Source of the DNA: Nocardioides speluncae
GTDB lineage: Bacteria > Actinomycetota > Actinomycetes > Propionibacteriales > Nocardioidaceae
Assembly: GCF_003121585.1 (NCBI RefSeq)
Contig: NZ_QEOO01000042.1
Coordinates: forward strand, 124,001-188,000
Length of the DNA stretch: 64,000 bases
Direction of reading: 5' to 3'
Each line of letters starts with the position of its first letter. Position 1 is the first letter of the stretch. The translations under genes were made by a program, and so were the position numbers. The notes under the pieces are model-generated. The model was not told the origin of the DNA and searched no databases. It saw nothing but the letters and a program-made list of their open reading frames with translations. Positions 409-59,147 of this stretch are shown piece after piece.

Positions 409-888
409 TCAGCGGTCGCCGACCTCGTCGCGGGCTCGTTCGAGAGCGGCGATGGCGGCGGCCTTGACGTCGGGGGCGTCGGGGTCCAGGCCCTCGTCGT
501 ACTCGAAGGACCACTGGAGCGACTGGTCGCCGCGCGGCGCCCGGCGGGCGATCACGAACAGGCCGAGAGCGCCGCGGACCGGCGCATGCCGCTGGAGTAC
601 GACGCTCGCGGTGACCCGCTCCCTGACCAGCTCGAGCAGCAGCCCGGGATCGTCGACGGCGACGACGTGGACCGGGCGCTCCTCGCCCCAGGTGCCGACC
701 TCGGCAACGGTCAGCGTCGCAGCGTCGATGTCCCAGTCGGCCGCCTGCACCTGCTCCCACGGGATCCGTACGCCGCCGGGCAGGAACAGTGCGTCGCGGG
801 TGCCGACCACCTCCGCACCGTCGCCGGTGCGAGCCAGTGCGAGCACCCGCTCGCCGGCGAGCTTGCCAAGGCCACCGATCCGCTTCAC
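409..888 (-). CDS. Conserved hypothetical protein downstream of dnaG
   Basis: This reads as about 159 residues from the GTG at 888 (MKRIGGLGKLAGERVLALAR). An in-frame GTG at 912 would add eight residues. I prefer 888 because AAGG lies 7 nt upstream of it and the 912 start falls inside the arm of a long hairpin. There is no signal peptide or membrane segment. The body looks like a small beta-rich domain with a conserved W-E-Q-V-x-x-A-D-W stretch, and the C-terminus is a helix rich in Ala, Glu and Arg. It sits between dnaG and tRNA-Asn on the same strand. Function unknown. Confidence 0.7.
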   Translation of the reverse strand: MKRIGGLGKLAGERVLALARTGDGAEVVGTRDALFLPGGVRIPWEQVQAADWDIDAATLTVAEVGTWGEERPVHVVAVDDPGLLLELVRERVTASVVLQRHAPVRGALGLFVIARRAPRGDQSLQWSFEYDEGLDPDAPDVKAAAIAALERARDEVGDR

Positions 889-902
889 CCGGCCGCCTTC
901 AT

Positions 903-1065
903 TAGTGGTCACTCCCGGAGGTTCTTCGAGGGTCTGAGTGGTCAGGGTGCGTGCAGCGCAAGGCGTCGGAGGGAGGCGGGCCGGTGGCCCGTCGACCGAC
1001 GACGACGCAGCGATGTGCGTGCCCTGGCCGCTCAGGCCCCGATGAACTTCCGGGGGTGACCACTA
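903..1065. repeat. Very long imperfect palindrome (hairpin) between dnaG and the downstream gene
   Basis: The segment folds end to end. 903-924 pairs with 1044-1065, 930-955 pairs with 1014-1039, 963-968 pairs with 1003-1008, and the tip 977-982 pairs with 986-991. In the two main arms nine of the non-Watson-Crick positions are G-T pairs on the + strand, and none is A-C. The right arm covers the dnaG stop codon. Function unknown; it could be a processing or termination structure, or a mobile palindromic element. Confidence 0.75.
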
Positions 1066-2946
1066 GGTCCCCATCGCGAGCTCGCGGAGGGTACGGCGGT
1101 GCTGCTCGAGTGCGACCAGCTCACCGAACATCTTGTTGTACGCCGCGGCCTCCTCGACCGGGTTGGTGCGCTGGAGCTTCGACTTCACCTCGGTGATCCG
1201 GCGCAGCGCGGTCAGCTCCTGGAGCCGGTAGATGTGCACAGAGACGTACGCCGTGTCGGGTTCCTTCGAACTCCGTACCGGCTCCACTCCCAATGCGCTG
1301 ATCACGGACGACACCGCCGGGTCAGCGGTCGACTCGCGCAGCCGGGTCGCCCAGCCGCCGTCGGTCGCCCCCACTGCTGGTCCGCCGGCCGCTGCAATCG
1401 CATCCCAGACCGCGCGGTACGTCGGATGGGTAAAGTCATTGCTGCCCAGGTCGCCGCTCGCCGCGCCAACCAAACCAGGCTGCTGGATGAGCAGCCTCAG
1501 AGTGTCTCTCTCAAGGGCGAACCGAGGGTCGCGCAGGTCTGGAGCCGGCGGAGAAGCAGGTTCCGGCGGACCAGAGTCGCGTACCTGGCCGCCCTTCCTG
1601 GCCTGCTGGTTGCTGCGCCGGCCGAGGGCGCGGCGAAGCTCATCTCGCGCCTGCTCGATCTCGATGCCGATCACGGTCACGAGCTCGCGCGCAAACTCGT
1701 CGACCTTCGTCTTGTCACGAATGCTGGACACCAGCACGTCTGATGCTTCGCGGAGAGCGTCGATGCGCGCGTCAGCGCGATCCAGGTCATACCGGCTCGC
1801 GATGCTGCGGAGTTTGAGGTGAAACAGCGGAATGCGACGGGCCACGAGTTCCCGAACAGCGGCGGGACCCTGCTGCACCATCAGGTCGCACGGATCGAGA
1901 CCTGTCGGCTCGATTGCGGCGTACGTCTTTGAGACGAACACGGCCTCCAGGTCGTAGGCCCGCTCGGCCGCCTTCACACCGGCGGCGTCGCCGTCGAAGG
2001 TGAAGATCACCTCTCCCCTGGCGACCTCATGATCGAAGAGGAATCGGCGCAGGATCTTCGCGTGGTCCTCGCCAAAGGCGGTGCCGCAGGTCGCGACCGC
2101 GGTGGGTACGCCGGAGAGGTGGCAGGCCATCACGTCGGTGTAGCCCTCGACCACCACCGCCTGCGACGAGCGGGCAATCTCGCGGCGGGCCAGGTCGATG
2201 CCGTAGAGCACCTGGCTTTTCTTGTAGATCGGGGTCTCGGAGGTGTTGAGGTACTTCGCCTCGCGCCGGTCGTCGTCGAAGATCCGGCGGGCGCCGAAGC
2301 CGATGGTGTCACCGCTGGAGTCCCGGATCGGCCACAACAGCCGGCCCTGGAAGTTGTCGTAGTGGCCACGGCCGTGTCGGACCAGTCCGGACACGACCAG
2401 CTCCTCGTCACCGAACGCGAGCTGGCGCAGGTGCTTGTAGAGCGCGGCCTCGTCGCGCGGGGCGAAGCCGACGCCGAACTGCTCGGCGGCGGTCTGGTCG
2501 AAGCCGCGGCTGCCGAGGAACTGGCGGGCGACCAGCGCGTCCGGGGTGCCGAGCTGGTCGGCGTACCACTCCTGCGCCTTGTTGTGGGCCTCGACCAGCC
2601 GGCTCCGCTTCGGGCCGGTCGGCCGCTGCGGCTCCTCGCCGTCCTCGCGCCGCAGCTGGACGCCGTACTTGTCAGCGAGCCGCTCGATCGCCTCGTTGAA
2701 GTCGAGACCGTCGATCTTCATGAGGAAGGTGATGACGTCGCCGCCAGCTTGGCAACCGAAACAGTGGAAGAACCCCCGGGCCGGGGTGACGTGGAACGAC
2801 GGCGACTTCTCGTCGTGGAAGGGACACAGCCCCTTCATCGAGCCGCCGCCGGCGTTGCGGAGCGTGACGTACTGGGAGACGACGTCGTCGATGCGTGCCT
2901 TCTCCCGCACCTCTGCGATGTCGTCCTCACGGATCCGCCCTGCCAC
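1063..2946 (-). CDS. dnaG: DNA primase
   Basis: DNA primase synthesises the RNA primers for chromosomal replication in complex with DnaB. I read 627 residues from the GTG at 2946 (MAGRIREDDIAEV). A longer open frame reaches 2985 but its extra residues do not resemble the family. The CHC2-type zinc finger has C41, H44, C62 and C65. The TOPRIM core shows EGYTD and the acidic FDGDAAG motif. The C-terminal third, beyond a Gly/Pro/Ala-rich linker, matches the helicase-interaction domain. Length is typical. It is the first gene of a minus-strand group with the hypothetical gene at 409-888. A 9-bp inverted repeat lies 15 nt upstream of the start. Confidence 0.97.
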   Translation of the reverse strand: MAGRIREDDIAEVREKARIDDVVSQYVTLRNAGGGSMKGLCPFHDEKSPSFHVTPARGFFHCFGCQAGGDVITFLMKIDGLDFNEAIERLADKYGVQLRREDGEEPQRPTGPKRSRLVEAHNKAQEWYADQLGTPDALVARQFLGSRGFDQTAAEQFGVGFAPRDEAALYKHLRQLAFGDEELVVSGLVRHGRGHYDNFQGRLLWPIRDSSGDTIGFGARRIFDDDRREAKYLNTSETPIYKKSQVLYGIDLARREIARSSQAVVVEGYTDVMACHLSGVPTAVATCGTAFGEDHAKILRRFLFDHEVARGEVIFTFDGDAAGVKAAERAYDLEAVFVSKTYAAIEPTGLDPCDLMVQQGPAAVRELVARRIPLFHLKLRSIASRYDLDRADARIDALREASDVLVSSIRDKTKVDEFARELVTVIGIEIEQARDELRRALGRRSNQQARKGGQVRDSGPPEPASPPAPDLRDPRFALERDTLRLLIQQPGLVGAASGDLGSNDFTHPTYRAVWDAIAAAGGPAVGATDGGWATRLRESTADPAVSSVISALGVEPVRSSKEPDTAYVSVHIYRLQELTALRRITEVKSKLQRTNPVEEAAAYNKMFGELVALEQHRRTLRELAMGT

Positions 2947-2960
2947 GTCGCGGAGTCTAC

Positions 2961-2998
2961 GAGGTCGGCTGTGGTTTAGACCCACTGTGGCCGACCTC
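2961..2998. promoter_or_regulatory. Inverted repeat upstream of dnaG
   Basis: GAGGTCGGC at 2961-2969 is the exact reverse complement of GCCGACCTC at 2990-2998, with GTGG/CCAC inside. It lies 15-52 nt 5' of the dnaG start, where an operator or leader hairpin would sit. No known regulator site is recognised. The rest of the dnaG to L,D-transpeptidase spacer (2999-3153) shows nothing I can name. Confidence 0.35.
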
Positions 2999-27308: not shown

Positions 27309-27789
27309 CAACCTGCTTGAGGTCATCCGGCCGACGGCCGACCAGTGGCCGCTGTTCCGGGAGATCCGGCTGCGCTCGCTGGCCGACGCCCCGGAGGCCT
27401 ACGGGTCGACGCTGCCGCGTGAGCAGGCGTTCACCGAGGCCGACTGGCGGGAGCGGATGGGGAGCTCACCGGTCCTCGTGCTCGACGGCGAGCGGCCGGT
27501 CGCGATGGGCGCAGCCTGGCGGGACCAGCCGGGCTGGGTCATGGTGGTGGGGATGTGGACCGACCCGGCCTACCGCGGTCGCGGCCTGGCCGGGCAGGTC
27601 CTCGACGCGTTGGTCGAGGCCGCCCACGCCGAGGAGCTCCGGGTCTATCTGTGGGTGACCCAGGGCAACTCCGCCGCCCGCTCGGCATACCAGCGCTACG
27701 GCTTCGTGGCCACCGGCGAGGCGGAGCCGAAAAGCCCCGACCGCCCACACCTGCTCATGGACAAGATGGTCCTGCCGCCGCCCGGATAG
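27301..27789 (+). CDS. GNAT-family N-acetyltransferase
   Basis: This is a single GNAT domain of 162 residues. The acetyl-CoA motif is VGMWTDPAYRGRGLAGQVLD and motif B includes LWVTQGNSAARSAYQRYGFVATGE. The start GTG at 27301 lies within the previous gene's end (AGGTGCCC upstream), indicating coupling. The stop TAG lies inside the arm of a 25-bp palindrome that also separates it from convergent leuA. The substrate is unknown. Confidence 0.88.
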   Translation: MVDNLLEVIRPTADQWPLFREIRLRSLADAPEAYGSTLPREQAFTEADWRERMGSSPVLVLDGERPVAMGAAWRDQPGWVMVVGMWTDPAYRGRGLAGQVLDALVEAAHAEELRVYLWVTQGNSAARSAYQRYGFVATGEAEPKSPDRPHLLMDKMVLPPPG

Positions 27790-27847
27790 TCCAGAACGTT
27801 TGACATCACCATCGGTCGAAAAGTGATGTCAAACGTTCTGGACTATC
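27785..27847. repeat. Palindromic repeat, copy 1 (25-bp perfect arms)
   Basis: 27785-27809 is the exact reverse complement of 27823-27847, with a 13-nt loop. The arms begin GATAGTCCAGAACG. The same arms occur at 59032-59096 with a different loop. It lies between convergent GNAT and leuA genes and contains the GNAT stop codon, so it may also terminate both transcripts. Confidence 0.9.
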
Positions 27848-27852
27848 GACCC

Positions 27853-49305: not shown

Positions 49306-49453
49306 GCGCGGTCGGCTCGGCCTCGGACGCCTGCGGGCGGCGTCCAGCGGCTTGGCCGCGGCGCGCGCCAACGGAGCGCAACCAAAGGCGGCGGCCAAGC
49401 GCGCGACGCGCCGCCGCAGCGCCCGCAGGCGTCCGAGGTCGGGCCGACCGCGC
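49306..49453. repeat. Long hairpin (34-bp uninterrupted stem) between convergent genes
   Basis: 49306-49339 pairs with 49420-49453 with no mismatch; two pairs are G-T on the + strand. Inner stems 49340-49344/49405-49409 and 49351-49359/49391-49399 continue it, leaving a loop of about 31 nt. It lies between the exporter (+) and corC (-), where it can terminate both. Confidence 0.85.
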
Positions 49454-58981: not shown

Positions 58982-59031
58982 GCCTACTAGACCAGTAGCC
59001 CCAAGAGTCCGTCGTCGCGACCGCGCAAGCC

Positions 59032-59096
59032 GGATAGTCCAGAACGTTTGACATCACTTCTGGGCCGAAAGTGATGTCAAACGTTCTGGACTATCC
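59032..59096. repeat. Palindromic repeat, copy 2 (28-bp arms)
   Basis: 59032-59059 is the reverse complement of 59069-59096, with a 9-nt loop. The central 25 bp of each arm are identical to the copy at 27785-27847; the loops differ. Here it lies in a divergent spacer (hrcA and DUF2470), so it cannot be explained as a terminator of convergent genes. Confidence 0.9.
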
Positions 59097-59147
59097 ACGC
59101 GGCGAGACAGGTGGGTGGGCGATCTGTCCTGGCCGATCAAGGCCGCA

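Follow-up and report, generated by a model that had tools for sequence, protein, structure and literature searches.

The hairpin at the end of dnaG

The window analysed here, a stretch of 64,000 nucleotides of the Nocardioides speluncae genome, carries a long hairpin where dnaG gives way to the next open reading frame (Table 1). The near-complete pairing of its arms that had been predicted from the letters alone was confirmed by an ungapped count (903-924 against 1044-1065, and 930-955 against 1014-1039), in which the 48 pairs comprise 39 Watson-Crick and 9 G-T pairs, with no A-C and no other combinations. As also predicted, all nine non-Watson-Crick pairs are G-T on the + strand (two-sided p = 0.004 if G-T and A-C were equiprobable), and the TAG stop codon of dnaG lies within the right end of the element. 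The nine pairs are, nonetheless, not independent, because four of them (948/1021, 949/1020, 952/1017, and 953/1016) derive from a single motif, GTGCGTGC, present on both inner arms. Here and below, G-T and A-C counts were taken from ungapped or strand-symmetric alignments or from named columns, since predicted folds cannot hold A-C pairs.

Table 1. Coordinates of the hairpin, its parts and the flanking genes within the window.
Feature	Position	Strand	Basis or remark
Whole element, in core orientation	903..1065	+	163 nt, terminal TAs included; full-length matches to 22 other copies in the genome, and fold
Left outer arm of the TAGTGGTCAC type, TA at 903-904	903..924	+	Pairs with 1044-1065; two-sided changes among 23 copies
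Left inner arm, GTGCGTGC at 947-954	930..955	+	Pairs with 1014-1039
GCAAGGCG, 5' strand of the conserved internal loop	958..965	+	Near-invariant (n = 50 members), which is partly built in by selection on core letters
Apical stem and loop	966..1002	+	Fold and alignment of copies
CGACGCAGC, variant of the conserved CAACGCnGC, 3' strand of the internal loop	1003..1011	+	A to G at 1004
Right inner arm, GTGCGTGC at 1015-1022	1014..1039	+	Pairs with 930-955
Right outer arm, TA at 1064-1065, holding the dnaG stop codon (- strand, 1065-1063)	1044..1065	+	Arm pairing
dnaG, DNA primase	1063..2985	-	TIGR01391, E 5.9e-110
Next open reading frame, function unknown	409..912	-	Candidate starts GTG 912-910 (inside the element) or GTG 888-886, read from the sequence

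The predicted RNA fold of positions 895-1075 reaches -139.9 kcal/mol on the + strand (z -14) and -99.2 kcal/mol on the - strand (z -6), values that were equalled by none of 200 shuffles in either case. Comparison with the covariance models of Rfam 15 returned nothing at gathering score except tRNA elsewhere, and nothing in 860-1110 with E up to 10, so that assignment to a known RNA family was rejected; a tRNA gene lies at 267-339 of the window on the - strand. The open reading frame that follows dnaG had no NCBIfam match, and an ATG at 902-900 was rejected as its start, being out of frame.

A dispersed element with a shared core and exchangeable arms

The hairpin is not a feature of dnaG; it represents a single copy of a gene-less palindromic element that is dispersed and occurs in many Actinobacteria. 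A DNA search with positions 903-1065 gave matches in 21 of 58 related genomes (N. speluncae included), of which two among the weakest lack the core and are probably chance, and found 15 near full-length places in N. speluncae itself. A terminal-motif search together with the fetched loci yielded 23 full-length copies more than 90% identical in this genome, the dnaG element being 90.9-96.9% identical to the 22 others over the whole length; the element has recently spread within one genome. The core pattern occurs at 82 places in the N. speluncae genome (reversed-pattern control, 0) and matched 14 of 39 genomes overall, while a stricter version recovered at least 109 stretches from public genomes, with Nocardioides, Kribbella, Streptomyces, Kitasatospora, Actinomadura, Microbacterium, Frankia and others among the matches listed. 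One core match outside the Actinobacteria, in a Rhodanobacteraceae MAG, may reflect horizontal transfer or a mis-binned contig. The element is short (about 160-205 bp among the copies measured), non-coding and multi-copy, and is bounded by terminal inverted repeats, the attributes by which MITEs are recognized.

What the copies share is a core, GTGCGTGC..GCAAGGCG on one side and CAACGCnGC..GTGCGTGC on the other, enclosed by self-complementary arms that differ between subfamilies. Within N. speluncae alone the same core stands under about 10 sets of outer arms, each self-complementary, as sorted by eye from a table of 91 rows (81 from this species) in which some ends are over-extended by the fold. 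Even copies as close as these 23 differ in their outer arms, where paired positions change on both sides, and the inner part is nearly fixed; at element positions 11 and 153, for example, the pair is G-C in 12 copies, C-G in 5, T-A in 5, and T-G in 1. The G at 1004 (pair 62/102) is unique to the dnaG copy among these 23. The core looks as though it has been maintained on one strand in the form of a folded RNA, with the outer arms still changing.

Two loci of N. speluncae show other arrangements of the ends. At contig 11, positions 427152-427474 (1500-1823 of the fetched locus), a tandem pair of copies has a common TA, as if one had inserted at the end of the other, and another locus (L040, 1552-1579) contains a 28-nt palindrome made solely of TAGTGG-type ends and devoid of core, which may be what a deletion left behind or else a minimal form of the element. 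End-only palindromes of this kind, 50-67 bp long, are found in Streptomyces and Kitasatospora genomes.

Pairing is conserved on one strand

The original prediction took the bias at dnaG as a sign of selection for pairing on the + strand, a view supported by the homologous copies. Out of 149 core matches, 131 passed the arm-score cut and 126 were unique; the orientation of these members was fixed by the core sequence and their arms were aligned with strand-symmetric scores. The dnaG copy is absent from this set, and from the 199 elements considered below, because its G at 1004 escapes the core pattern. The arm pairs of the 126 members include 6212 Watson-Crick, 876 G-T, 93 A-C, and 632 other pairs, and 112 members are G-T-rich, 3 A-C-rich and 11 tied, so that A-C differences are not as frequent as G-T in homologous copies, a frequency that would have spoken against such selection. 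Over 199 elements the bias depends on the distance from the core, with G-T:A-C ratios of 510:6 at 1-20 nt, 274:83 at 21-50 nt, 34:32 at 51-60 nt, 41:47 at 61-80 nt (mostly outside the element), and 6:1 at 81-90 nt. When arms were grouped into 89 clusters, distances 26-60 gave 147:47; G-T predominated in 50 clusters and A-C in 13, and 26 were tied.

Covariation was assessed in 50 members, namely 49 of the 199 elements chosen for dissimilar inner arms plus one close copy of the dnaG element. Their consensus structure has 27 pairs, 20 of which show two-sided changes. Standard pairs occupy 96.2% of cells, whereas shuffles reach 79.4% and slid versions no more than 54.5%, and two-sided cells number 179 vs. 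52; no shuffle out of 500 reached any of five measures, a contrast that relatedness among the 50 members inflates. Of 1324 cells, 1274 are standard when read on the core strand and 1021 on the opposite one, and the core strand has 262 G-T cells against 9 A-C, or 107 against 9 once the four repeat-motif pairs are removed. Because core letters decided membership, GCAAGGCG and CAACGCnGC are invariant partly by construction. Both covariation and the use of G-U on one strand, the signature of a conserved structured RNA, are present. With 20 of 27 pairs covarying and G-T at 262 against A-C at 9, structural selection on one strand is therefore supported.

Insertion sites and candidate mobilizers

The end motif GTGG...CCAC was matched 33 times, two of these matches looking like chance. 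A TA is found at the left end in 20 of the 33 and at the right end in 27, a disparity that a plain 2-bp duplication does not predict; the base preceding the element is C in 27 and the base following it G in 22, and in 12 the stop codon of a flanking gene falls on a terminal TA. These flanks point to CTAG or TA as putative targets, often at stop codons. Some copies of the AGCCCGG type resemble, in our reading, 3-bp TNA duplications.

In Kitasatospora xanthocidica five copies, and one more in a further genome (G124), have a near-identical interior and different flanks, all of the form CTAG...CTAG. For one such site 12 element-free genomes were available, 11 of them readable: CTAG stands there in 4 (G124, G059, G104, and G106), TCAG in 6, and CTAA in 1. 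Within 60 nt of the empty site CTAG occurs once in G124 and twice in each of the other three. Empty sites among the loci fetched earlier were too diverged to be read. In G104, the empty site has CTAGGGCCTAG before the anchor, which may be the footprint of a lost copy or chance.

The 18-bp end of the K. xanthocidica copies opens, with one mismatch, the repeated sequence at four contig ends of that genome, and elements of 938 bp with such ends exist at three loci of related genomes (L279, L280, and L284); a 182-residue transposase stretch of the last matches NF033580, an IS5 family model (E 8e-47). CTAGG-type inverted ends were seen around IS5 matches at 15 of 30 loci from related genomes, some of these loci representing one and the same IS. 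When the ends of IS5 elements from one of these genomes (G022) were compared with the arms of N. speluncae, two loci (L188 and L211) differed by 2-4 mismatches in 20 and a third (L189) by 5, and no other match with up to 4 mismatches was present in the 681,884 positions of the fetched N. speluncae loci. The CTAGGGCGTGTCTGACAA arms of Kitasatospora are shared with IS5 ends, and the L188 and L211 arms of N. speluncae nearly so. Since no core is present at the IS loci, the core is not simply an IS5 remnant. The element is MITE-like in having nearly identical copies at separate sites, insertion points of the CTAG type and, for related arm types, arms shared with IS5 ends.

The IS5_3 transposase, found in 18 of 58 relatives, is absent from N. 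speluncae and from three copy-rich genomes (G008, G010, and G014), and a further search, run without a positive control, was also empty. For TAGTGGTCAC ends, 57 motif places (control, 6) were obtained, and inspection of 13 loci for a second end revealed no pair at transposon length. In four Streptomyces and Kitasatospora genomes most TAGGGCCTGTCTTCRAACTC ends are separated by 50-67, about 176 or 205 bp, and none at IS-length spacing was seen by eye. Arms of the TAGTGGTCAC type may depend on a different DDE transposase for their movement; alternatively, their partner may have been lost or may lie in gaps of the N. speluncae assembly, which consists of 51 contigs at 96.7% completeness. An IS630 origin, suggested by the TA ends, is disfavored, no matching inverted ends having been seen around the single DDE_3 match in N. 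speluncae. On contig 19 of N. speluncae (L164), a split-frame IS630-like transposase lies beside an open reading frame that resembles, by eye, a group II intron reverse transcriptase.

Proposed mode of spread and alternative explanations

We consider it probable (about 0.7) that the element is an actinobacterial MITE-like repeat, moved in trans by a DDE transposase, and that its core persists in folded form on one strand. A transposase encoded elsewhere, of the IS5 family where it can be traced, would recognize the outer arms and insert the element at CTAG or TA sites, often at the stop codon of a gene. The core inside the arms, which is conserved across genera, would be maintained folded on one strand, most likely as an RNA that might be bound or processed via the internal loop GCAAGGCG/CAACGCnGC. 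We infer that transposition occurs in trans, that RNA and not single-stranded DNA is the selected molecule, and that elements with TAGTGGTCAC arms move likewise; RNA appears the likelier molecule because G-U is used freely and a Y1 transposase is absent.

A more speculative and rather improbable extension would make the core a selfish RNA riding successive transposon ends, its fold kept across Actinobacteria and its ends, hence its transposase, exchanged, with the RNA acting in trans. Such an RNA could, for example, bind the transposase or a host RNA-binding protein via the GCAAGGCG/CAACGCnGC loop.

Single-stranded DNA, folded as in IS200/IS605 or REP elements, could instead be the molecule under selection; it would equally account for a hairpin that spans the whole length, for a strand-specific structure and for a mixed orientation to genes. 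We regard this as unlikely. Y1 HUH transposases were found in 0 of 39 related genomes (positive control, 5 of 14), which also led to the rejection of an IS200/IS605 or RAYT origin, and the ends of the element are symmetric and common to DDE IS5 elements. RNA, moreover, accommodates G-T pairs much more readily than DNA does, and such pairs fill 262 of the 1324 cells.

Less likely still is that the symmetry arose without structural selection, by template switching during replication that copies one arm onto the other, a mechanism proposed for RNA hairpins in the accessible part of one source (PMC8794818). In the outer arms (element positions 7-19) we counted 33 two-sided against 16 one-sided cells, as this process would produce, and it may contribute there together with selection on the core. 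It predicts perfect pairs, however, rather than G-T pairs that lastingly outnumber A-C on one strand, and the same wobble pairs persist across genera.

It is very unlikely that the hairpin is an RNA element belonging to dnaG or its neighbor, whether an antisense or processing element, as the original prediction also suggested, or an attenuator. In its favor, the element covers the dnaG stop and parts genes that abut or overlap in relatives. A search with positions 500-1900 matched 53 of 58 genomes, and in the 20 relatives that were fetched and aligned at the dnaG spacer the element is absent from every one. Elsewhere the same element lies between many different genes and in all four orientations to its neighbors: relative to the core direction, 114 of the 126 members have scorable genes on both sides, oriented (-,-) in 42, (+,+) in 32, (-,+) in 25, and (+,-) in 15, and the remaining members are inside a called open reading frame (4) or unscorable (8) with a simple gene caller. 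Empty spacers in relatives and mixed orientation speak against dnaG-specific regulation; a secondary effect of the element on the dnaG operon is possible. A chance or decayed palindrome without function, which would fit just the few mismatches of one copy, is practically irreconcilable with the shuffles, copy number, covariation and strand bias.

Relation to known repeats

Hairpins of bacterial MITE-like repeats are mostly regarded as by-products of inverted ends. To our knowledge the present element has no sequence tie to ERIC/IRU, Correia/NEMIS, RUP or YPAL, with which it is compared here by description. According to the accessible parts of the sources (PMC2229807, PMC10969869, PMC2267715), these MITE-like palindromes are likewise short, non-coding dispersed repeats with end-to-end hairpins and TA-type ends, which form stable RNA hairpins and are mobilized in trans by an IS transposase; the mobilizer of RUP is IS630-Spn1, and effects of RNase III or E are known for NEMIS and ERIC. 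Unlike them, the actinobacterial element has a single core that recurs under many unrelated arm types and in several genera, shows covariation and favors one strand, and the traced partner of the element belongs to the IS5 family, in contrast to the IS630 partner of the RUP type.

The Caulobacter CIR and other stem-loop repeat families are also repeats with a conserved predicted RNA structure, which 57 of 92 repeat families share in the accessible text of one survey (PMC2229807, PMC2267715). CIR differs in having two arms with a linker and a GANTC loop, and the parts of these sources available do not mention an exchange of arms around a conserved core. Elements of the IS5 family (NF033580) have similar ends (CTARGGCGTGTCTGAYAA or CTAGGGCGTGTCTC-like) and CTAG-type sites, but encode a transposase and lack the core. 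REP/REPIN sequences with their RAYT are dispersed intergenic palindromes as well, although they measure 20-40 bp in the accessible part of the description (PMC3733652) and no Y1 transposase was found in the 39 relatives surveyed here.

Novelty is limited, because conserved predicted structure in bacterial repeats is already known from what these papers make available (PMC2267715, PMC2229807); what distinguishes this element is that its exchangeable ends enclose a shared core whose structure is under selection on one strand. Strong one-strand covariation across genera, in one core under unrelated arm types, makes a functional RNA cargo, its binding partner and the exchange of ends testable, and a repeat present dozens of times in the N. 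speluncae genome would also gain a name. No title or abstract opening in the literature searched, in which subscription papers were mostly outside reach, describes this family; the accessible text of the MITE review (PMC10969869) mentions neither Streptomyces, Actinobacteria nor Nocardioides, and that of the stem-loop survey (PMC2267715) does not mention Streptomyces.

The window holds other repeats as well. A hairpin of about 70 nt with ATAGTCCAGAACGTTTGACATCAC arms represents a second palindromic repeat; its copies at 27782-27850 and 59030-59098 are 88% alike, and a further N. speluncae copy near position 2339 of another fetched locus (L028) gives it the appearance of another dispersed family. 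At 49306-49453 there is an inverted repeat with 34-nt arms that are 94% complementary and 80 nt apart.
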